NCBI GenBank assembly: GCA_016215105.1
Contig: JACRLJ010000070.1
Coordinates: forward strand, 1-45,084
From: Candidatus Hydrogenedentota bacterium
GTDB lineage: Bacteria > Hydrogenedentota > Hydrogenedentia > Hydrogenedentales > SLHB01
Reading direction: 5' to 3'
Length of the DNA stretch: 45,084 nt
Made by a program: the position numbers and the translations under genes. The notes under the pieces are model-generated. The model was not told the origin of the DNA. It made no database searches and was given only the letters and a program-made list of their open reading frames with translations. Shown here one piece after another: positions 15,687 through 27,904 of the stretch (position 1 is the stretch's first letter; every line of letters begins with the position of its first letter).

Positions 15687-15740
15687 CAGACGATACCTAG
15701 GCCGGTGGACGATTACGGACGTCTGCCCGTCGTGCCCTCG

Positions 15741-15995
15741 TCAAGTCTTCTTGGCGGATGTTCGCGGCGTAGCAGAGCGGAACCTTTCGAGGCACTGATC
15801 TGCTGACGCGCACCATTTGGCGCAGCCAAGATCGATTCGCGGGTTGCGCACTTCCCGCTGACACCCGGGACACATCCGAAATGGTTCGTCTTTCCAGATT
15901 TCGATCTCGCTTCCACACGAAGGACACACGGCATACGCGATATCCTCCGGGCGCCACTTGCTCAGGTCTTGTCCGGGACATCGCGACTCAGGCAT
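15741..15995 (-). CDS. zinc-ribbon protein at the end of the CODH/ACS operon
   Basis: 84 residues from ATG 15995, with GGAG nine bases upstream. Eight cysteines form CPGQD (Cys6), CPSC (24, 27), CPGC (42, 45), CAKWC (58, 62) and Cys68. The two central CxxC pairs make a zinc ribbon. The flanking cysteines could hold a second metal. The pattern CPGQDL...W+PEDI...CPxCG...NPxIDLGCAxWC recurs in small proteins of anaerobes, and I recall it beside corrinoid or CODH genes, though this cannot be checked here. It follows the corrinoid activator by 54 bases on the same strand and is probably the last gene of the operon. Function unknown. Confidence 0.65.
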   Translation of the reverse strand: MPESRCPGQDLSKWRPEDIAYAVCPSCGSEIEIWKDEPFRMCPGCQREVRNPRIDLGCAKWCASADQCLERFRSATPRTSAKKT

Positions 15996-16049: not shown

Positions 16050-17957
16050 TCATCGCTCGGCCAATTGGGCAGATACGGTAGGGAAAAGCTCCGCGTGCGT
16101 GTGGGGAAGAAACATGGCCCCCATGTACTCTTCCATATACCCAGGGTAATTGCTGAGGTCCACATAGGTCATTCGCCGAGCCAAATCTAATTGGCGCTGG
16201 CGGTAGTCTTGCGACACCACCACCATGTACGAGCCCATCAGCGACGCATTGCCGATGAACTGAAACCGATGACGCTCGATATCGGGAATGAGACCAAGCG
16301 TGATAGCCTTTTCCAAGTCGAGGTAACGGCCAAATCCACCTGCGACGTAAATCCGAGCGAGATCCTCGATTCCAACACCCACTTGTTTGAGGAGCACAGC
16401 GCACGCGGAAAAGATCGCTGCCTTCGCGCGAATGATGTTCTCGATATCCATCTCGCTAATCGCAACAGGCTCACCTGTCGCGCTCCGGTCGGCGGGAGCG
16501 ATGATATAGCGCGCCTGTTTGCCTTTCACCTCAATGTTTGGCGAATGCCGAGTCGTATCTAGCTTCCCAGCCGGATCCAGCCAGCCCGCCGTGAATAGGT
16601 TCGCAATTACGGCGATCATGCCGGACCCGCAGATACCCCGGGGCGGCGCGTTGCCAATGGTCCAGTACTCGCAGGCGCCGGTTTCGGCGTCCACTTCGAC
16701 GCGCTCGATTGCGCCAATGGCCGCACGCATTCCACAGCCGATGCCTCCGCCCTCAAAGGCGGGGCCTGCCGAACACGCGCAACTGATCAGGAAATCGTTA
16801 TTGCCGATAACCAATTCGCCATTGGTGCCGATATCAATGAACAAGCACAATTCGTCGGTCCCCGCCGCGATATCGGTACACAATAGTCCGGCCGTAATGT
16901 CACCGCCAACGTAGCTGCCAATGCTGGGCGAGAAGCAAATCCACGAGTCCGGGTTGATGTTCAGCCCTACTTCGTCAGCGGTTACGTACGGGGTTTCAAG
17001 GACGGTCGGCGTATAGGGAGCAAGGCGTATGAAGTCCGGCTTCAGACCCAGCAATAAGTGGGTCATCGTCGTGTTTGCGGAGACAACCGCATTGGTGATC
17101 TCCTCGAGCGCAATGCCGCGATTGCGAACCAACTCCGTCAACAAGCGGTTGATCGTTTCCAACACGCGCGTACGCAATCCCTCCAGGCCGCCAGGACGCC
17201 CCGCATAGTCAATGCGGCTGATGACATCGAGCCCGCACGCGACTTGGTCGTTGTACGCGCTTTGGGTGGCGACGATCTGCGCCACCGTAAGATTGATCAA
17301 CTGCACTGCGACGGTGGTCGTGCCGACGTCCACCGCGATCGCGTAGTGTCGCGTAGTTTGATCGCCCGGTTCAATGCGAATGACGTTCAGCTTCCACTCG
17401 TCGAGAACCAGCGTTACCGTAGCCTGGCCTTCGGACGCGCGCAAGACGTCCGCTGTTTCGCGTATGATCCGTATCGGATACACTACCTCCAGCTTGCCCC
17501 ACTGTCGCTGAATGGCTCGCGTCAGACGGTCGATATCCGACATTCCATCTTCTGGCTGCGGCGAAGCCACCTGAAGCAACCACTTGACGGCGAGTGGGCC
17601 ATACTCCCATTTCGTCGGCAGTAGTTCGCGACGGACCAAGTACGTTTCGTCACCGTCACCAAACTGTCCCCCGGACCGGGCGGCAATTTCTGGGGTCTCG
17701 ACGGTGATCGGGCTATCCTGAACGCGGGTCTTGCACGCCAGCACGTATCCCTCGACCACCGCCGTGTTCGGGAGCACCCCCAGACTGTCCGACTCCACGT
17801 CGCCGTCCACGACGCGAACGATGCAACGGCCGCACGTGCCTTTGGCGCCGCAAGGCGTGTCGATCTCTACGCCCGCGCGCCGCGCCGCTTCGAGCAGTTC
17901 CGTGCCCGGCGGCGCGTCGATGACGATGGATGACGGCAGGAACGTTATTTCAGGCAT
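16050..17957 (-). CDS. RACo-like corrinoid reductive activator ([2Fe-2S] plus ASKHA ATPase)
   Basis: 635 residues. The N-terminal plant-type ferredoxin domain (about 1-95) has Cys36, 42, 45 and 75 for one [2Fe-2S] cluster. A linker domain follows, then an ASKHA-fold ATPase (DUF4445) from about 205, with VDVGTTTVAVQL, an IDIGTNGELVIG phosphate loop and VAGGFGRYLD. In acetogens RACo uses ATP binding to reduce the inactive Co(II) corrinoid of AcsCD to Co(I). The location directly downstream of acsC fits this. No strong ribosome site precedes the ATG. Homologues also serve methyltransferase corrinoid proteins, so the partner is inferred from position. Confidence 0.9.
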   Translation of the reverse strand: MPEITFLPSSIVIDAPPGTELLEAARRAGVEIDTPCGAKGTCGRCIVRVVDGDVESDSLGVLPNTAVVEGYVLACKTRVQDSPITVETPEIAARSGGQFGDGDETYLVRRELLPTKWEYGPLAVKWLLQVASPQPEDGMSDIDRLTRAIQRQWGKLEVVYPIRIIRETADVLRASEGQATVTLVLDEWKLNVIRIEPGDQTTRHYAIAVDVGTTTVAVQLINLTVAQIVATQSAYNDQVACGLDVISRIDYAGRPGGLEGLRTRVLETINRLLTELVRNRGIALEEITNAVVSANTTMTHLLLGLKPDFIRLAPYTPTVLETPYVTADEVGLNINPDSWICFSPSIGSYVGGDITAGLLCTDIAAGTDELCLFIDIGTNGELVIGNNDFLISCACSAGPAFEGGGIGCGMRAAIGAIERVEVDAETGACEYWTIGNAPPRGICGSGMIAVIANLFTAGWLDPAGKLDTTRHSPNIEVKGKQARYIIAPADRSATGEPVAISEMDIENIIRAKAAIFSACAVLLKQVGVGIEDLARIYVAGGFGRYLDLEKAITLGLIPDIERHRFQFIGNASLMGSYMVVVSQDYRQRQLDLARRMTYVDLSNYPGYMEEYMGAMFLPHTHAELFPTVSAQLAER

Positions 17958-17986: not shown

Positions 17987-19224
17987 TCACGACGCCAGCG
18001 CCGACTTAACAAAAGTTTCCAAATCACCCGCCTCCTGCGGACCGACAATGACCTCCCATCCGGGCATCGATTCTTCAAGTTCGCCCGAGATTTGGGCCAC
18101 GTATCCTGGGATGATGATCTTGCGGCCCCTAATCTGCTCGTTGAGACCAATCTCCTTCGCAAACGAGCCAATCTTAGCGCCGCTGAATTTGCCTGCGGCC
18201 CACGCGGTGAGACCGCTCATGCCTTCACACTCCGGGATAAGCAACCACGCAGACACGGTTCGACCTGTATCGGCTTCTGAGGATCGGTATAGATGTTCTG
18301 GCGCAGCGCCAGCAGGGAGACAAACGTGGACGGATCAAAAGTTGGCAGGATCGCTACGCCGCCGTATTTCACAATCTCAATCCCGGCCTCGACCGCGTCA
18401 TCCAACGCGTTCCCGGTGTCGATGTATCTCAACATGGGATAGCCCAAGTCCTTAATTCCCGACTTCAGCGCGCCGCGGCGAATGATCGTATTGTTCTGTA
18501 CATGCTCGCACAAGGTATCGGCGCTCAATTCCAGCAGGATGTCCTTGAAGTCGATAGAACGGAGCGTCTCGACCATTTCAGCCAATTCATCGAACTCGTC
18601 CGACGCGACAGCCAGCGCCGCTTCATTGGCCTTGGCGATCTCCCCCAATTCCTTAACCGTGTCAGGTGTCGCCGAAGCGAGGAGCGGCCTTCTTCCGCGC
18701 AGGGCCTCCGCGGCGGCGCGCAAATCGCTCACCTCCGCGCTGCGTACGACCACGACTTGATCCCACAACTCGGCCACCCGCTGTATCACGGCGAGAAACC
18801 GGGCCGAAGATCCGTTCTTGCGGGCCACGCTCACCACATTCGGGCGAAGCTCCTCGCCTACGCGCTCCAATCGGTACTCGGCTATCGCCTTCACGCGCCG
18901 CTCGATTTCGTCATCGGTCAACGTGTCGTCCACGGAGATTCCTAGACCCATCGCGTTAACGAAGGTCTTCTCGTGGCGAAACATAACCGTCTCGCCGCCA
19001 ACCGTTATTCCGTTTGGCGCGCCAAGCTTGACGGTACGGATTGGCGGCTCCGCTGCTGCGCCCAACTCCGCCTTCGCCTCTTCCGAGACATACGGACAGG
19101 CGGACAATTCCGCCTTCTTCGCGGCAAGCTTCATCGCAAACGCGAGGCACGTATTCGATCCGCATTCCTTGCAGTTCGTCTTCGGCAGCAGCTTCTGTAT
19201 CTGTAGGCCGGACAATGGGGCCAT
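17987..19224 (-). pseudogene. acsC: corrinoid iron-sulfur protein large subunit AcsC, broken by internal deletion
   Basis: AcsC carries cobalamin and a [4Fe-4S] cluster and delivers the methyl group to ACS. The start (ATG 19224, GGAG upstream) gives TNCKECG-x3-CLAF and Cys42, the normal cluster motif, then the TIM barrel up to YTDPQKPIQVEP. There the frame diverges and ends at TGA 18217 (335 residues). The C-terminal continuation, VSAWLLIPECEG then GLTAWAAGKF and IPGYVAQISGELEE, runs in another frame to 17987. Compared with known AcsC, about 32 residues including the TTNFSLTYF-type segment are missing at 18257-18265, where GGTCGAACC fits both flanks in different frames. Either a true deletion or an assembly collapse. 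Confidence 0.88.
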
Positions 19225-19226
19225 GG

Positions 19227-20696
19227 TTATTTCTCCATTCGTTCCGCGCCACGCGGAAAGAGCTTTGCGACGTTCCGGCGAAGCGCGGCCAACGATTCTG
19301 GGTGATAGAGTACGACCAGATCCGCCCCCGAAAGGACCAGCGGCATCGCAGTCTGAATCTCCCAAAGCACGCTGCGTTTTGCCCGGTCACCCCACTGCGG
19401 GAACGCCGATTCCGGCGCATGACCCTCTTTTGCCTTCCACGCTTCCTGACCGACGTGGGCGATCATTGGAAAAGTCAGTGCCGCGTCTCCACCGAGTCCC
19501 GTCAGCCGTATTCGCTCCATGACCGAGTACGTGTATTCCAGGCCATACCCTAGCGCGCCCGTCATCGGGTCCATCACGATCCGATCACGTGGCAGGTCCA
19601 TGTTGGTGAGCAGGATGTTCAGTTGCTTTGCCAGATTGACGTCAATCGGACTCTGCGCGACCAGGCAATGGCCATACGCTAACGCCGCGCCGGCGATGGT
19701 CCGATAGTTGTCTCCTTCCACCCAATTCAAGAGGAGTCGCTCTCCCTTGCATCCGGCCGCAATTGCCTTCATGACCTCGTTAGTTGCGTCATAGTGACTG
19801 TGGCCCGTAATGATGAGGGGCACATCGACTGCGTTAAGGACCCCCCGCACCAGCGCCAAGGCATCCTCGGGAGACTTCCCGCCTTTCTCCGGATGCGTAC
19901 CTTCGAGACGAATTGAAATCGCATCGGCCCCATGTTGCTCGACGCACGCTTTCGCCATCTCCACGGGATTGCCGAGCAGATCGCCCCACGTTTCCCGTAG
20001 CACTGGCGAGAGTTTGGCGCTGACGGTATCGAATACTTCGAGCGCAAATGCCGGCGGATGCGGAATCGTTCCCTCAAAATGATGGAACGCGAGACAGTTC
20101 TGGCCCCCCAGCGCCAGCGTGCGGCCGCGTGTGCCACCTTCCTCGCGCGTCGCGCCCAATTTCACTTCCTGTATGCGTTCGCTCGATTCCTCTTTCGGTA
20201 TTGCGAAACTCCTGACTGCGGCAAGCTTCTGCTCAGCCGAGCGAACAATTTGCTTCTTCGTTGAAGCCGGAACAGACGCAACAGGCTTCGAAGCCACTTC
20301 TTTTGCTGGCGCCGGCGCCAACGCGGGTACGTTCGCCGGAGGCTTAGGAACTTCTGCCTTTGGAGCCGGGCTAGACGGTGTGACCACTTCAACCGCGCGA
20401 TGCGCAACCGGCGCCAAGGGCGCTTTCATTTCTGGCGCTGAGGGCACGGACGGAACGGATACTATCGGAGCTTTTGTCTGAACCGTCTGCGCGGGCGCAA
20501 CGCCATTGATCGCTCCTAATAGGGACGCAGCGACTTCTCGCGTGATATCTTGCCTCAATTCGCTCGATATCGGTCTCAACTTCTCCTGAATATCCGCTTT
20601 CAGCATTTCGCGCAGTTCGCCGGCAAGCTTGTCCTTGATTGAGTCTGCTATCTGCCGTGAAACCGAAGATACCATCTGCTGGAATAGAGCCGACAT
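19227..20696 (-). CDS. acsD: corrinoid iron-sulfur protein small subunit AcsD with N-terminal extension
   Basis: 489 residues from ATG 20696, overlapping the acsB stop (TGATG). From about 175 (IQEVKLGATREEGGTRGRTLALGG) to the end it is a normal AcsD TIM barrel (family about 320), with FHHFEG, MDPMTGALGYGLEYTYSVMERIR and PMIAHVGQEAW. Residues 1-65 form a charged amphipathic helix or coiled coil and 66-160 a Pro/Ala/Val/Lys linker, neither found in the acetogen protein. Archaeal CdhD also has an N-terminal extension, but of different sequence as I recall. With AcsC it forms the methyl carrier of ACS. It precedes acsC by two bases. Confidence 0.93.
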   Translation of the reverse strand: MSALFQQMVSSVSRQIADSIKDKLAGELREMLKADIQEKLRPISSELRQDITREVAASLLGAINGVAPAQTVQTKAPIVSVPSVPSAPEMKAPLAPVAHRAVEVVTPSSPAPKAEVPKPPANVPALAPAPAKEVASKPVASVPASTKKQIVRSAEQKLAAVRSFAIPKEESSERIQEVKLGATREEGGTRGRTLALGGQNCLAFHHFEGTIPHPPAFALEVFDTVSAKLSPVLRETWGDLLGNPVEMAKACVEQHGADAISIRLEGTHPEKGGKSPEDALALVRGVLNAVDVPLIITGHSHYDATNEVMKAIAAGCKGERLLLNWVEGDNYRTIAGAALAYGHCLVAQSPIDVNLAKQLNILLTNMDLPRDRIVMDPMTGALGYGLEYTYSVMERIRLTGLGGDAALTFPMIAHVGQEAWKAKEGHAPESAFPQWGDRAKRSVLWEIQTAMPLVLSGADLVVLYHPESLAALRRNVAKLFPRGAERMEK

Positions 20697-23218
20697 CAGC
20701 GCGACGGGATCGGCGTCAAGTTTCTGAGGCGGCGGCGTAGTAACGATGGCGTAACAGGGGCTTCTGGCGCTTTTGCCACAGGCTCGCGCTTGCTGGCCGC
20801 GTCGATGATCGGAGTCGCGGCCTCCGGCGCGGCTTTCAACGGCGCGGCGTTCTGAACTACGCTGGGCAACGGTCCCACACATCCGCGTCCATGCCGGTGC
20901 ATGGGCTGGTCTACCGGGTCGAATGACGATTCGGCTGATTTCGCGCTGGACGAACTCGCCTTTTCAACCCTTGCGATCTCCCCCTTTCCGTTCGTAGGCG
21001 CCGGCGCCGCAACCGGGACCTCCAATCCTTCCCACAAGGTATCCATCGCGGGAAGCTCCAGGGCCGGGTGTCCCACCTTCTCCATGTACGTGCGAATGTC
21101 ACCCGGCGCGGTCGCGATGCTTTCGTCCGCTATGAGGTCCCACAGTTCCGGAACGCCGTCCGCCTCAATGCGCGCATGAAAATCGTCGGATATGATTCCC
21201 TTCAATTCTTTCGGCATCCACACTACGCGCCGGACACCGCCTTCCGCGGAAAGAAACTTCGGGCTGCACAGGAAGGCTTTCCCCACGCCCATAAAGCCGG
21301 GAGTCTGCACACCTCCGCCCACCATCCCCGCCAAAGTACTGAATGTCATCCCCACCGGGGTATCGGCCATGAACTCGCGATTCACAATCATCACGCCATT
21401 GCACTCGGGTACGTAAGCGATAATCGCCTCGAAACAGCCGCACGAGGTCATTGGGTGACTCATTAGGCTGTACGCGGTAAAGATCTTCGTCTTCTTATGG
21501 GAGTTCTTGAAAACGTACTCGTTGACCCCCTCCCAGACACCTCGCACCGGATCCAGGCATCGCCCTTTCTCCACAGGCTGATTAGGTCCTGTCTCATCAA
21601 TTTCGTGCGCCGCTTTGCCGTCGAGCCAGTTGTAGGCCCCGCACAACCCCAGCCGCTCCGGCGTGATTACGCATACATGGTCAGGCGCAAAGGATTGGCA
21701 CAACAGGCAGCTGTAAAACGTGTCTACCGACTCGTCGGTCATCGCCGCCAAGCGGTGGTTCCGTTCAACGTACACCTTGCGGGCGTGCTCGAGACGCCGC
21801 TCCACCTCGTCGCGGTCAGTGATGAGCGTCACCTTCACTTTGTCCACGATCGCCGGGTAATCGTTTAGGAGTTTCGTGTGCAGAATCTCGCCGTAGTGCC
21901 GCAGCCGGAATCCTCTGGCAAAGGCGTTCTTGCTAACACGCGTCCAGATGATATCGCGCTGCCCCATGTGCCAGATCCCCTCTGCACTATTGATCAGATG
22001 GTGGATTTGGCGTTCGAGAATGGGTTCGAAGTCGCTCTGCATCTTACGGCCCGCCGCTTCCACCCAAATTGCGAGCGGCAACGCCGTGCCTTCCGGGACC
22101 TCATCAATATCTGGGCCGATGATTTCAATGGCTCCATCTTCGATTTCATCAAGACTGGCGGATTGTACAAACTCGAAGCCCGGTGTGATGTTCCCCCCGA
22201 ACTCCGCGTGAACGTCCACCTTACGGATGCGTTCGCCCTCGAACGCCGGACCGAACGCCACGGGGATCGGCACTTTGGCAATCTTTACCTTGCAGCCGCG
22301 TACTTCCAGCGCTTTGGCGACGATCTTGTCATGAGGCACATTGCTTACGACGTGCTCGTAGGTGCAGACGCCCGTCGGCAGAATCTCCGGAATATCCGTA
22401 TCGGCAATGGTCGGGAATCCGTAGTTGATCGCGCCCGCGGCAGCGGCGTATTTCTCGTCGTCCACCTCGCCCAGAGCCAGCACGAACGCGAAGATGCGAT
22501 TCTTGTTGTAGCGCAGGTTACGCTCGAAATCGCCCGGCGCCACGCCACCGAACGACAACGCCGCGCGATTGGCAAATCCGAGCGCATAGATCGCCGCCGA
22601 CACGTCCCTGCCAAACGGAACTAGCCGCGTTTCCCACCCCAGTTGCACGCCTTCGGATTCAAGCTGCTCGGCGAACGTGACACCGTCCACAGCCCCCGCC
22701 ATGAATACATACAGATTCTTTTCTTGAAGCTCGCGGGCAATCCGCACTGCCGTCTCAGAGTCCGGAGCGGCCCCGACCACCGCAGCAAACCCCGGGGCCG
22801 TTCCGTCTACGAACTCGATTCCCCGCTCGCGCATAATGACGTCGTTCGCCGCGCCAAGCCAAATCCCATCAACCGGACTCGGGCCAATTACGGTCTTGCA
22901 TGCCTCGATCACTTCAAACGCGAACAGCGTTGCTGCGCCTGCGTCCAGCGCGTTGCCCAGATAGGGTAGCCACACGTCATCGGACGGTGGCGCCGACACC
23001 AGCCCGCGGCACTCGTCAAGGATCGCCGTCATGTCGCCAAGCTTCTCGACCTTGCTGCCCGTAAATGAATAGATTACCGGAAGATAGTAGGCCGTGTCCG
23101 GAAACGCGACCGGATGATCTGCTCCTTTCTCCGCGATGGCCTGCGCCAATATCGCGTCCGCGCGCTCGACCGTGTCCCTGGCCCCAATGATTGCGCTCGA
23201 ACAAATGAGCTTAGACAT
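20696..23218 (-). CDS. acsB: acetyl-CoA synthase catalytic subunit AcsB with C-terminal tail
   Basis: 840 residues. ACS joins CO, a methyl group and CoA to acetyl-CoA at the A cluster. The cluster ligands are visible: CLLC-x8-C-x9-C for the [4Fe-4S] part and S-CGC-FEA for the distal nickel. The N-terminal CODH-binding domain is present, so this is the bacterial form and not the short archaeal CdhC. The usual end (HPALELPAM) comes near 725, then a tail of about 115 residues rich in Ala, Pro, Ser and Lys with a basic end (LLRRRLRNLTPIPSR). It starts eight bases inside acsA, with GGAGAGAG upstream, and runs into acsD. Confidence 0.95.
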   Translation of the reverse strand: MSKLICSSAIIGARDTVERADAILAQAIAEKGADHPVAFPDTAYYLPVIYSFTGSKVEKLGDMTAILDECRGLVSAPPSDDVWLPYLGNALDAGAATLFAFEVIEACKTVIGPSPVDGIWLGAANDVIMRERGIEFVDGTAPGFAAVVGAAPDSETAVRIARELQEKNLYVFMAGAVDGVTFAEQLESEGVQLGWETRLVPFGRDVSAAIYALGFANRAALSFGGVAPGDFERNLRYNKNRIFAFVLALGEVDDEKYAAAAGAINYGFPTIADTDIPEILPTGVCTYEHVVSNVPHDKIVAKALEVRGCKVKIAKVPIPVAFGPAFEGERIRKVDVHAEFGGNITPGFEFVQSASLDEIEDGAIEIIGPDIDEVPEGTALPLAIWVEAAGRKMQSDFEPILERQIHHLINSAEGIWHMGQRDIIWTRVSKNAFARGFRLRHYGEILHTKLLNDYPAIVDKVKVTLITDRDEVERRLEHARKVYVERNHRLAAMTDESVDTFYSCLLCQSFAPDHVCVITPERLGLCGAYNWLDGKAAHEIDETGPNQPVEKGRCLDPVRGVWEGVNEYVFKNSHKKTKIFTAYSLMSHPMTSCGCFEAIIAYVPECNGVMIVNREFMADTPVGMTFSTLAGMVGGGVQTPGFMGVGKAFLCSPKFLSAEGGVRRVVWMPKELKGIISDDFHARIEADGVPELWDLIADESIATAPGDIRTYMEKVGHPALELPAMDTLWEGLEVPVAAPAPTNGKGEIARVEKASSSSAKSAESSFDPVDQPMHRHGRGCVGPLPSVVQNAAPLKAAPEAATPIIDAASKREPVAKAPEAPVTPSLLRRRLRNLTPIPSR

Positions 23219-25199
23219 GCAACTCTCTCCGATCTTTCATGTCCAGCAGCTTGCGCTCGACTTGCTTGTTAATGCCCAGCGCATTCCGCTTCTTTTCGAG
23301 GTGCTCACAGATAACTTCCACGGCCCTCGCCGGATTGGAAATGTAATGGAACTTTGCGCCAACTATGGACTCGAGTTCTCCGCAAAGCAGCTTAGTGACG
23401 TTCTTCGATCCCATCGTATGGAACGGGTGGCCAAGCACCACATCGACCCCGGATGCCACAAAGTAATGCCCAATCGCGATGGCCTTCTCGCTCATCCATT
23501 CCGGCGCCGCGCCAATCACCGGCGCCTCCGACAGGTCCGCGCCAAGGCCCCCTTCCTCGACGATGTAGGTCACCGCCATGAGCAACCGCGAGTTGTCGAC
23601 GCACGACCCCATGTGCAGCACGGGCGGAATGCCTACCGCTTCGCACACTTCGCGCAGGGTTGGCCCGGCCATTTCAAGGGCCGTTTCCGGCGTAAGAAAA
23701 CCCGCCTTGCCGCAGGCCACCGCCGCGCAACCTGTCTGGAGGACTAATACGTTACGGGCGATCAATTCCTGCGTCAACGTTAGAATGTACTCGTCCATCT
23801 TCCCGCGCGCGTTCGTGCAACCGACGACTGCGCACACCCCGCGAACACGTCCGGTAATGATGGCGTCGTTCAGCGGACGGAAACTCCGGCGGAATCGGCC
23901 GCCCAGCATTTCGAAAATGGTCTCATTGCTAAACCCCGCGACCAGCGGCTTCTGTTGATTGGGTATCGCCACTTTCTTCGGATCGCGATGGGGATAGTTG
24001 GCTATGGCTTTCCGTAGAATCTCTTTTGCGCACTTGAGGCCCTGCTCGGGCTCAAAATGCACCGCCTCCGCGCCGTCATTGCGCGCCAACGGATTCGATG
24101 TCAATATCTTCGTGTGGTAGCACTTCGCTACCTCCGGTAGCGACGCCATGCAGCACTGTACGTCCGTTACCATGAGTTCCACGGCCCCGGTAACGATGGC
24201 CAATTCCTGTTGCAGGAAATTCCCGGCCACCGGCACGCCGTGACGCATTAACACTTCGTTCGCGGTGCAGCAGATTCCGGCCAGGTTCACCCCTTTGGCG
24301 CCGACGGCCGCCGCCGCAGCCCGGATCTCGGGGTCGTGCGACGCGACCACAAGCATCTCTGTCAGAGCCGGTTCGTGCCCATGCACCAACACGTTAACCA
24401 TGTCCGCTTCGAGCACGCCCAGGTTGGCGCGCGATTTCACGGGTTTTGGTGTGCCAAACAGGATGTCACTGATCGTGGTGGCTATCATCGAACCGCCCCA
24501 GCCATCCGCAATAGCGACTTTGAGCGCGCCCTTAATGAGATTGCGGTAATCGTGGTCAACGCCCATGTTTGTGCGATGCATTGCCTCGACAATGGTCCGA
24601 TCAATTCCCGATGGCGCTATCTCCGCGCGCTTCCACACTGCTTGGCGTGGCTTCGGCGCCAACTCCAGCGTCTTCAAACTGCCGTCCTGAAGCCGGAACT
24701 CCTCTGTAAAAAGTTCAGCAAGGCGTCCAGCGCATTCAAGCGTCTCCAAGTCGTGTTCCTCGATACCCCAGAGGCGCGCGGCGGCCCGAAGACGGGTCTC
24801 ATCGCTAATCCGATAGTGTCCCCCGCGGCCTTGGGCGACATCCGCAAGCAGATGCACAAGGTGTCGCGCGTGGTCAGAGTGGGCGGATGTTCCAGCGGCT
24901 ACCTGACGCAGCAGATTTCTTGCGGCGACGGTATCCACCGTCGCTCCGCATACCCCTGGCGCATATTCGGATATCTTGCAGGGCCCCATGTGACAGATGC
25001 GGCAGCAGACGCCGTCCGTGCCAAATACGCACGGCTTGCCCTGCTCATCCGCGCGCGAGAACGCATCGTTCTCGACTCCATCCGCATCGGCTTTCTCGAG
25101 CATCGCGATGCTCGCTTCGTCCACGGCGATCTCGCGGGGACTCCGTTGTCTCTCTTCAGCCATCCATCTCTCCAAGCCGGCCTCAGCCGGTTTCGCCAA
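23211..25199 (-). CDS. acsA: anaerobic nickel CO dehydrogenase catalytic subunit
   Basis: 662 residues, the usual length. CODH interconverts CO2 and CO at the NiFeS C cluster and passes CO through a tunnel to AcsB. The N-terminal Cys57, 65, 66, 69, 74 and 84 (CCRICHMGPCKI) hold the B and D clusters. Downstream, LVHGHEP, GICCTANE, VGCTNARG, TGCAAVACGKAG and MGSCVDNSR supply the His and Cys residues of the C cluster. The start is TTG 25199, just after cooC1. ATG 25163 (MAEERQRSPRE) is a possible alternative, but its GGAG is very close. The product forms an operon complex with acsB. Confidence 0.95.
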   Translation of the reverse strand: MAKPAEAGLERWMAEERQRSPREIAVDEASIAMLEKADADGVENDAFSRADEQGKPCVFGTDGVCCRICHMGPCKISEYAPGVCGATVDTVAARNLLRQVAAGTSAHSDHARHLVHLLADVAQGRGGHYRISDETRLRAAARLWGIEEHDLETLECAGRLAELFTEEFRLQDGSLKTLELAPKPRQAVWKRAEIAPSGIDRTIVEAMHRTNMGVDHDYRNLIKGALKVAIADGWGGSMIATTISDILFGTPKPVKSRANLGVLEADMVNVLVHGHEPALTEMLVVASHDPEIRAAAAAVGAKGVNLAGICCTANEVLMRHGVPVAGNFLQQELAIVTGAVELMVTDVQCCMASLPEVAKCYHTKILTSNPLARNDGAEAVHFEPEQGLKCAKEILRKAIANYPHRDPKKVAIPNQQKPLVAGFSNETIFEMLGGRFRRSFRPLNDAIITGRVRGVCAVVGCTNARGKMDEYILTLTQELIARNVLVLQTGCAAVACGKAGFLTPETALEMAGPTLREVCEAVGIPPVLHMGSCVDNSRLLMAVTYIVEEGGLGADLSEAPVIGAAPEWMSEKAIAIGHYFVASGVDVVLGHPFHTMGSKNVTKLLCGELESIVGAKFHYISNPARAVEVICEHLEKKRNALGINKQVERKLLDMKDRRELHV

Positions 25200-26011: not shown

Positions 26012-26917
26012 TTAGCCGTTCCCGCGCATCGTTGCGGCGACAACTCGAATGTGCTCGGGAGACGATCCGCAACACCCGCCGATAAACCGCGCCCCAGCTG
26101 CGAGCAGGGGAGCCACTGAACTCTGGTACAGCTCCGGTCCCGCGTGATAGCGTACTTTTCCGTCAGCCCCAAGCTCCGCTTTCCCAGCGTTGCCCTTAAT
26201 CCAAATCGGCAGTTCCTTACCACAGGCCGCGAATTGCTCCGCGATATTTGCGAATGTCTCAATCCCCGCCCCGCAGTTCGCTCCAACGAAGCTCGCGCCG
26301 CCCGCCTTCGCCAACGCGTACGCCTCCGCCACGCTGGCCCCCATCATCGTGTGATCGTTATTCGCGCCGGCGTCGAATGTGAACGACACCCCAACGGACA
26401 GATCGCACGCCCGCAAACAGCCCCGAAGCGCCGCTTCGGCTTCCACAAGATCGGTCTGGGTTTCCACGACGATGGCGTCCGCGCCACCGTCAGCCAACGC
26501 CGCGGCCTGTTCCGCCGCCATTTCCTCGACTTCTTCCGGGCTGGCTTCGCCCATCATGACCATCTTCCCGCAAGGACCAATCGACGCGAAAACATAAGCC
26601 CGGCTTTGGGCCGCGCGTTTCGATATCTCCGCGCCGGCTTTGGAAAACTCCGCGGCGCGCTCCGCCATTCCGTGCTTCGCCAGGACGAAGCGATTGCTAT
26701 TGAACGTGTTCGTCAGAATGATTTGGGCGCCCGCGTCCACGTACGACTTCGCGACGGAGAAGACTTTCTCCGGTTCGCTGACGTTCCACTCGTCGCACAT
26801 CTGGCCCGGCTGCGCGCCGAGCTTCGCCATTTCCGTGCCCCACGCCCCGTCGGTGCATAGCGGTGGAAGCGCGTTGAGGTTCTTCCGTGTCAGTTTCACA
26901 GTCGAATCGAATCCCAT
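26012..26917 (-). CDS. homocysteine S-methyltransferase family protein
   Basis: 301 residues from ATG 26917 (a GTG four codons upstream is possible). It is the Hcy-binding TIM barrel of the MetH N-terminal module or BhmT type: CTDGAWGTEM at the start, ILTNTFNSNR, then VGANCGAG and GGCCGSSPEHI carrying the three zinc-binding cysteines. It activates a thiol, usually homocysteine, for methyl transfer. It lacks the folate and cobalamin domains of MetH, so the methyl donor must be another protein. Its place between cooC1 and a URO-D/MetE-like gene in the CODH operon suggests AcsCD or another methyl-corrinoid as donor (inference). Confidence 0.85.
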   Translation of the reverse strand: MGFDSTVKLTRKNLNALPPLCTDGAWGTEMAKLGAQPGQMCDEWNVSEPEKVFSVAKSYVDAGAQIILTNTFNSNRFVLAKHGMAERAAEFSKAGAEISKRAAQSRAYVFASIGPCGKMVMMGEASPEEVEEMAAEQAAALADGGADAIVVETQTDLVEAEAALRGCLRACDLSVGVSFTFDAGANNDHTMMGASVAEAYALAKAGGASFVGANCGAGIETFANIAEQFAACGKELPIWIKGNAGKAELGADGKVRYHAGPELYQSSVAPLLAAGARFIGGCCGSSPEHIRVVAATMRGNG

Positions 26918-26973
26918 CGTTCGTCTCACTTTCTTGGTGTCGGTTGCGCAATTGGCCGGGCACGTGCCGCTGC

Positions 26974-27904
26974 CTACGCAAAACCGTGATTCTTCCTCAG
27001 CTGCTGGCTTGTTTGTCCCAAGAGTTCAAATACCCGCTCCGCATCGGCCACTTCCATCGAGCCCGTACCGCAGGACGGCGTCACAAATGACCGCTCGACG
27101 ATCAGGCGCTTATCGATATGAGCCTTCTCGGCCAGATGCTCCGTCAAGCGTTCAAACCGCTCGACGAGGCTGGACACGGATTCGTTGCGGATCGCGGTAC
27201 TGGTCGGCGCCACGCCCCACGCCAGCGCGTTCTTACGTTCGACCAGATGCGTTCTCATTTGTTCGGGATACAACGCCACCGTTTCGCCGAACTGAAACGC
27301 GTCGAAGTTCACGATGTCCACTCCGGCGTCCACCAGGATCGACCACTCCGTGTTCCCGCAGCAATGCACTCCCGCGAGGCCGCCGTCGGTGTGAATAGCC
27401 GCCACAACTTCACCGATCTTCGCGACCACGTCATCCCGCTGCACGGACACATAGGTCGAGCTGCCAAACGCCGAGAGAATCGGCTCGTCAATAAAGCACA
27501 CGACATCGTCGGCGTACTGCTTGAACTTCTGCACCTGCCAGCGGCACTTCATCGCCAGTCCTTTGACCACCGCATCAACGAATTCCTCATTGTAGAATAT
27601 AGATCGCTATCGAACAGTCCCCCGTGTCCTCCCCGGCCATATACCCCTCGTAGAAGGCCGCCAAGTCCTCTGAATAATCGCCGCCTGTGTTGAAATACAT
27701 CCGTGCCTTGGCTTCATCAATGACAACGCGCGGCATTCCTTCCGAATACTGAATCTCCATCTGTTCGTGCAGACCCCGCTTGGAAAGCTGCGGCCAGATC
27801 GGCGCGTCGGGAATCGTGCTAAATATGACGTCCATCGCCCGGGACGGTTCAGCGTACGGCATCGAACCAATGGCCGTCGCAATACACCGCGGTTGAATCT
27901 CCAT
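26974..27904 (-). pseudogene. URO-D/MetE-like methyltransferase barrel, broken by internal deletion
   Basis: The start (ATG 27904, GAGGAG upstream) gives CIATAIGSMPYAEPSRAMD and a YSEGMPRVVID block. The frame stops at TGA 27587 (105 residues). A different frame resumes near 27600 (SIFYNEEFVDAVVKGLAMK) and runs to 26974, with VHCCGNTEWS (an H-x-C zinc-type site) and TPSCGTGSM (the position of the last MetE zinc Cys). The KGxxTGP block that normally lies between is absent from both parts, so a few dozen residues appear deleted as well as the frame changed. The intact protein would be a folate-independent methyl transferase acting on a thiol, in line with its neighbour (inference). Confidence 0.7.

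Follow-up and report, generated by a model that had tools for sequence, protein, structure and literature searches.

The 106 bp missing from acsC, the gene for the large (gamma) subunit of the corrinoid iron-sulfur protein (CFeSP) of carbon fixation, are in all likelihood an error of assembly in a scaffolded draft genome, because similar short losses occur in indispensable genes such as secA of the same draft; the organism's own acsC is very probably intact, with about 445 codons. The window, that is, the whole stretch of 45,084 nucleotides that was analyzed, comprises bases 1–45084 of the 53,437-base contig C125 of genome G000 (171 contigs, 6.68 Mb, 95% complete), probably a metagenome-assembled genome of Candidatus Hydrogenedentota. 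The gene order of its acs cluster, acsA-acsB-acsD-acsC-acsV, is also that of the Candidatus Hydrogenedentota genome G009 (locus L099). The features on which the argument rests are all on the minus strand:

16050..17957, minus strand: acsV-like gene for a corrinoid activation protein, intact (NF040756 over its full length, 4–626 against 2–632 of 632, below the curated cut-off)
17990..18256, minus strand: acsC, C-terminal part of the cobalamin domain (VSAWLL...KSALAS), in the other frame (PF03599 307–386 of 387; PRK04165 363–446 of 450; 70–74% identity to the nearest relatives)
18254..18258, minus strand: Junction 1, in acsC; 106 bp absent in comparison with relatives, including the near-invariant TTNF..TYF..E segment (spacing 105 bases in 84 of 85 loci, −1 here)
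18256..19224, minus strand: acsC, N-terminal part with 4Fe-4S motif and TIM barrel, 323 codons to ...IQVEP (PF03599 7.8e-48; PF04060; PRK04165 3–328 of 450; 2h9a_A 7e-71)
19227..20717, minus strand: acsD (CFeSP small/delta subunit), intact (PRK04452 family 4.5e-111; 0 of 50 invariant columns changed)
20717..20966, minus strand: AcsB–AcsD linker, with a frame switch here; the two are fused in a single frame in 15 related loci
20696..23218, minus strand: acsB (acetyl-CoA synthase), catalytic part intact (NF040764 1045 bits; 0 of 134 invariant columns changed)
23211..25199, minus strand: acsA (CO dehydrogenase catalytic subunit), intact (TIGR01702 623 bits)
26980..27606, minus strand: UroD/MtaA-like methyltransferase gene, C-terminal part, in the other frame (tblastn, 66% identity to residues 147–355 of the intact 361-aa G009 protein)
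27598..27606, minus strand: Junction 2, in the methyltransferase gene; an out-of-frame loss of about 140 bp (the same residues are 171 bases apart in G009 and 31 here)
27602..27904, minus strand: UroD/MtaA-like methyltransferase gene, N-terminal part (tblastn, 71% identity, 101 residues aligned to G009 L099:6035–7120)

In Pfam and NCBIfam the two acsC pieces correspond to complementary stretches of one family. The N-terminal part, whose frame runs from 19224 to 18256, carries the 4Fe-4S motif (PF04060, 49.1 bits against a cut-off of 23, with KTNCKECGSNTCLAFA found) and the CdhD-type TIM barrel (PF03599, 163.6 bits, profile positions 2–272), and reaches 336 bits against PRK04165 (cut-off 306). 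The C-terminal part starts with VSAWLLIPECEG at 18256 in a different frame and ends at a stop codon at 17987–17989. A preliminary description of this DNA had put the frame switch at 18257–18265, which is right to a base or two, and its assignment of the 3′ part to the C-terminal end of AcsC is borne out by the PF03599 and PRK04165 profile positions and by the identity to the nearest relatives. As given, then, acsC does not encode a complete C-terminal cobalamin domain in one frame. The solved CFeSP large subunits (2h9a, 4djd, and 9fzy), which phmmer matches over the N part at 7e-71 to 3.8e-59, are one continuous chain of 442–450 residues, whereas acsC here lies in two frames. Likewise, the intact acsC genes of Candidatus Hydrogenedentota (G009 L099, G012 L004) and of other phyla (L017–L022) have the same domains but carry the 35 codons absent here; the closest relatives share 63–66% identity over the N part and 70–74% over the C part.

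The size of the loss follows from the spacing of the two conserved parts, which is 105 bases in 84 of the 85 other acsC loci and 108 in the remaining one; here the parts overlap by 1 base, a shortfall of 106 bp (35 codons and one base) that also shifts the frame. The out-of-frame loss described earlier thus stands, and the accompanying estimate of about 32 residues gives way to this larger figure. The alignment with relatives' acsC that had been proposed as a check found the exact short form in none of the 85 other loci, by the same comparison of spacing, and a short acsC as a lineage trait was rejected; likewise, the 6.68-Mb genome has no second, intact copy of acsC. Among the 35 residues lost are some that relatives keep invariant or nearly so (TTNF, Y, E), and judging from this conservation a real lesion would presumably put the cobalamin domain out of function. 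Could the two pieces nevertheless form a working, split large subunit, with the C part translated separately? A GTG stands exactly at the C-part start, at 18256, with an open frame of 89 codons, but the near-invariant segment of the cobalamin domain is gone and no relative is split, and we regard such a subunit as exceedingly improbable.

The loss had further been placed at a short repeat that satisfies both flanking frames. However, GGTCGAACC occurs a single time in window positions 18000–18700, and its translation in the downstream frame is GRT, against NSG in close relatives, so that the sequence fits the upstream frame only. A deletion at a direct repeat was therefore rejected, and the relatives' codons suggest that the true overlap at the acsC junction is at most about 2 bp. 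Signs of decay in the gene itself are few and equivocal: both parts are free of internal stops, and among the invariant columns none of 55 differs in the N part and 1 of 11 in the C part. The altered residue is a V to G change at about 18212–18214 (minus strand), in GMSVLTAWAAGKF, at a position that is valine in 84 of the 84 relatives compared.

The acsC break has company in its own cluster. At a distance of 9.3 kb, a corrinoid-methyltransferase-like (UroD/MtaA-like) gene at 27904–26980 has a second out-of-frame loss, of 140 bp; up to 7 bp (AGCGATC) at its Junction 2 are compatible with both sides. Third, AcsB and AcsD form a single fused frame in 15 related bacterial loci (L099, L017–L019, L021, L025, L026, L029–L033, L035, L036, and L042), with about 108–250 codons between the conserved parts, and here the frame switches within this linker. 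The AcsB frame in the window terminates in a TGATG, which overlaps with an ATG in frame with AcsD, so that the switch might be tolerated through translational coupling; the acsD reading frame itself is open further upstream, to 20882. Of the earlier statement that everything else in the carbonyl branch looks intact, acsA, acsD, acsV, and the catalytic part of acsB hold, and the loss at 27602–27606 and the frame switch between AcsB and AcsD do not.

Two clear breaks and a linker frame switch inside 9.4 kb of one pathway cluster, with none in the window's other ~32 kb, at first suggested pathway decay, that is, a real and recent loss of function in which the carbonyl branch of the Wood–Ljungdahl pathway is decaying in the lineage, and an operon freed from selection has been hit in turn by the acsC deletion, the methyltransferase deletion, and the AcsB/AcsD linker shift. 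The altered invariant residue in the AcsC C part, the lack of a formyl-THF synthetase match in the G000 genome, and the lack of a recognizable acsE in it (two Pterin_bind matches only, one of them within a 1262-codon frame) are also on the side of decay. Against it, acsA, acsB, acsD, and acsV are full length, and the 134 AcsB and 50 AcsD invariant columns are unchanged. Moreover, G009, whose cluster is intact, is also without a formyl-THF synthetase match, so that this absence is no marker of decay. Together with the losses elsewhere in the genome described below, these points make decay unlikely in our judgment, and it is just as unlikely that a Hydrogenedentota lineage has been caught in the act of losing its carbonyl branch, at a stage when acsC and the methyltransferase gene have freshly suffered deletions and acsA, acsB, and acsD have so far been spared.

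What distinguishes decay from artefact is the kind of gene that is hit: decay should leave lesions in dispensable genes only, whereas a fault of assembly may leave them anywhere, including in indispensable genes. About 1.48 Mb of G000 outside the window were therefore scanned with a codon-model frame-switch detector, which recovers both breaks in the window, and candidates were then checked against family models and relatives. The single-copy secA (contig C11, L208 about 7690) is split in two frames and is exactly 70 bp short in comparison with all six relatives that have both parts. At the border of tmk and holB (contig C15, L143 about 15525), 69–70 bp are gone, comprising the tmk stop, the holB start, and the first ~22 holB codons; holB is otherwise single copy, and the relatives' orthologues continue upstream in one frame. 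A gspE-like gene (contig C30, L154 about 1155) is 59 bp short in comparison with two relatives, to which it is 79% and 82% identical. Family models are also split between frames in a Ser/Thr kinase gene (L191 about 1578; PknB 5–179 and 201–369) and in dnaX (L195 about 14689; 1–320 and 321–575). Further candidate frame breaks lie at L209 about 12306, L210 about 9366, L201 about 2028, L193 about 5686, L117 about 2339, and L151 about 3832. Those at L107, L112, L153, L161, L105 (10142), L113, L148, L157, and L160 were dismissed by eye as ordinary neighboring genes or antisense frames. Random pieces of G000 were also compared by homology with 0.4 Mb of genome G006, an approach that was dropped because the two had too little sequence in common.

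A growing cell without SecA is impossible, and the delta-prime subunit of the clamp loader is essential in the bacteria that have been studied. The losses in secA and holB are thus taken as faults of the assembly and not of the organism. Lesions of this type are not confined to the pathway genes, and the 70 bp missing from secA and about 70 bp missing at tmk/holB show that they also strike single-copy genes of this assembly that a cell cannot do without. Because a control run of the detector on G006 yielded for the most part ordinary overlapping gene pairs and N-gap sites, raw counts are not a break rate and only homology-checked cases are firm; on that footing there are at least 3 firm breaks, perhaps up to about 11, in the 1.48 Mb outside the window. 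At this background rate, the chance of a second break this near acsC is very roughly 4–14%. The clustering of breaks within 9.4 kb, as well as the changed invariant residue, has been counted against an artefact. The claim of an unusable CFeSP in this organism is nonetheless left unsupported, given like out-of-frame losses of 59–140 bp in the single-copy secA, in holB, and in the gspE-like gene. Of the two readings offered at the outset, an inactivating deletion or a collapse of the assembly, the data favor the collapse; the losses in these same three genes argue against a real deletion. Additionally, one may imagine a mixture of strains, in which intact and deleted acsC coexisted in the population and the assembler took, or spliced together, the path with the deletion: metagenome-assembled genomes do merge strains, and a single path is seen here. 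The losses in secA and holB would, however, go unexplained, as no viable strain should carry them, and we hold such a mixture to be very unlikely.

How might an assembly error produce these losses? Two adjoining contig ends around a short unassembled stretch may have been treated as touching and joined with no Ns, at the loss of what lay between. Many N runs of 1–86 bases are present across the G000 contigs, so the assembly looks scaffolded; one of 86 bases, at C125 45085–45170, lies directly past the window's last base. The gap sizes are unreliable by tens of bases. At L105 2237–2243, 7 N separate contig ends that share an identical stretch of 21 bp, and at L118 2391–2415, in a uvrA-like gene, 25 N separate ends that share one of 35 bp, which puts the two gap sizes off by about 28 and 60 bases, respectively. 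The errors that can be read directly are of over-sized gaps, whose flanks overlap, whereas the losses would need an under-sized gap; losses of the observed kind would result if a true gap were estimated at zero or less and its ends joined with no Ns. Alternatively, a chimeric read could have led to the same artefact, and would be indistinguishable here from a mis-sized scaffold join. The short out-of-frame losses in unrelated genes, the odd-length N runs, and the exact overlaps beside N runs resemble the scaffold-join artefacts of draft genomes; in contrast to these, the overlap at the acsC junction is apparently very short (about 2 bp).

The acsC break, as an artefact, is of low biological interest in itself, and cautions against inferring loss of function from this genome. 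As losses of 59–140 bp in otherwise healthy genes are this frequent, any lone broken gene here is suspect, despite the 95% completeness. Checking for like breaks in indispensable genes is cheap and can be transferred to other apparent pseudogenes in metagenome-assembled genomes. Titles and abstracts in the literature held nothing bearing directly on this genome.

Finally, the cluster and its surroundings hold several features of their own. Both G000 and G009 have the CODH/ACS/CFeSP cluster and are without a formyl-THF synthetase match, a combination which suggests that the methyl group comes from another source, for example through the cluster's methyltransferase-like genes. A homocysteine S-methyltransferase-like gene lies within the cluster at window positions 26012–26929 and is missing from the equivalent place in G009. 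At the other end, 3′ of acsV, a gene for a small Cys-rich protein (window 15738–15995) ends after about 85 matched residues, with about 155 more in G009 (L099 17123–17848); in five other loci, the first ~70 residues alone match.
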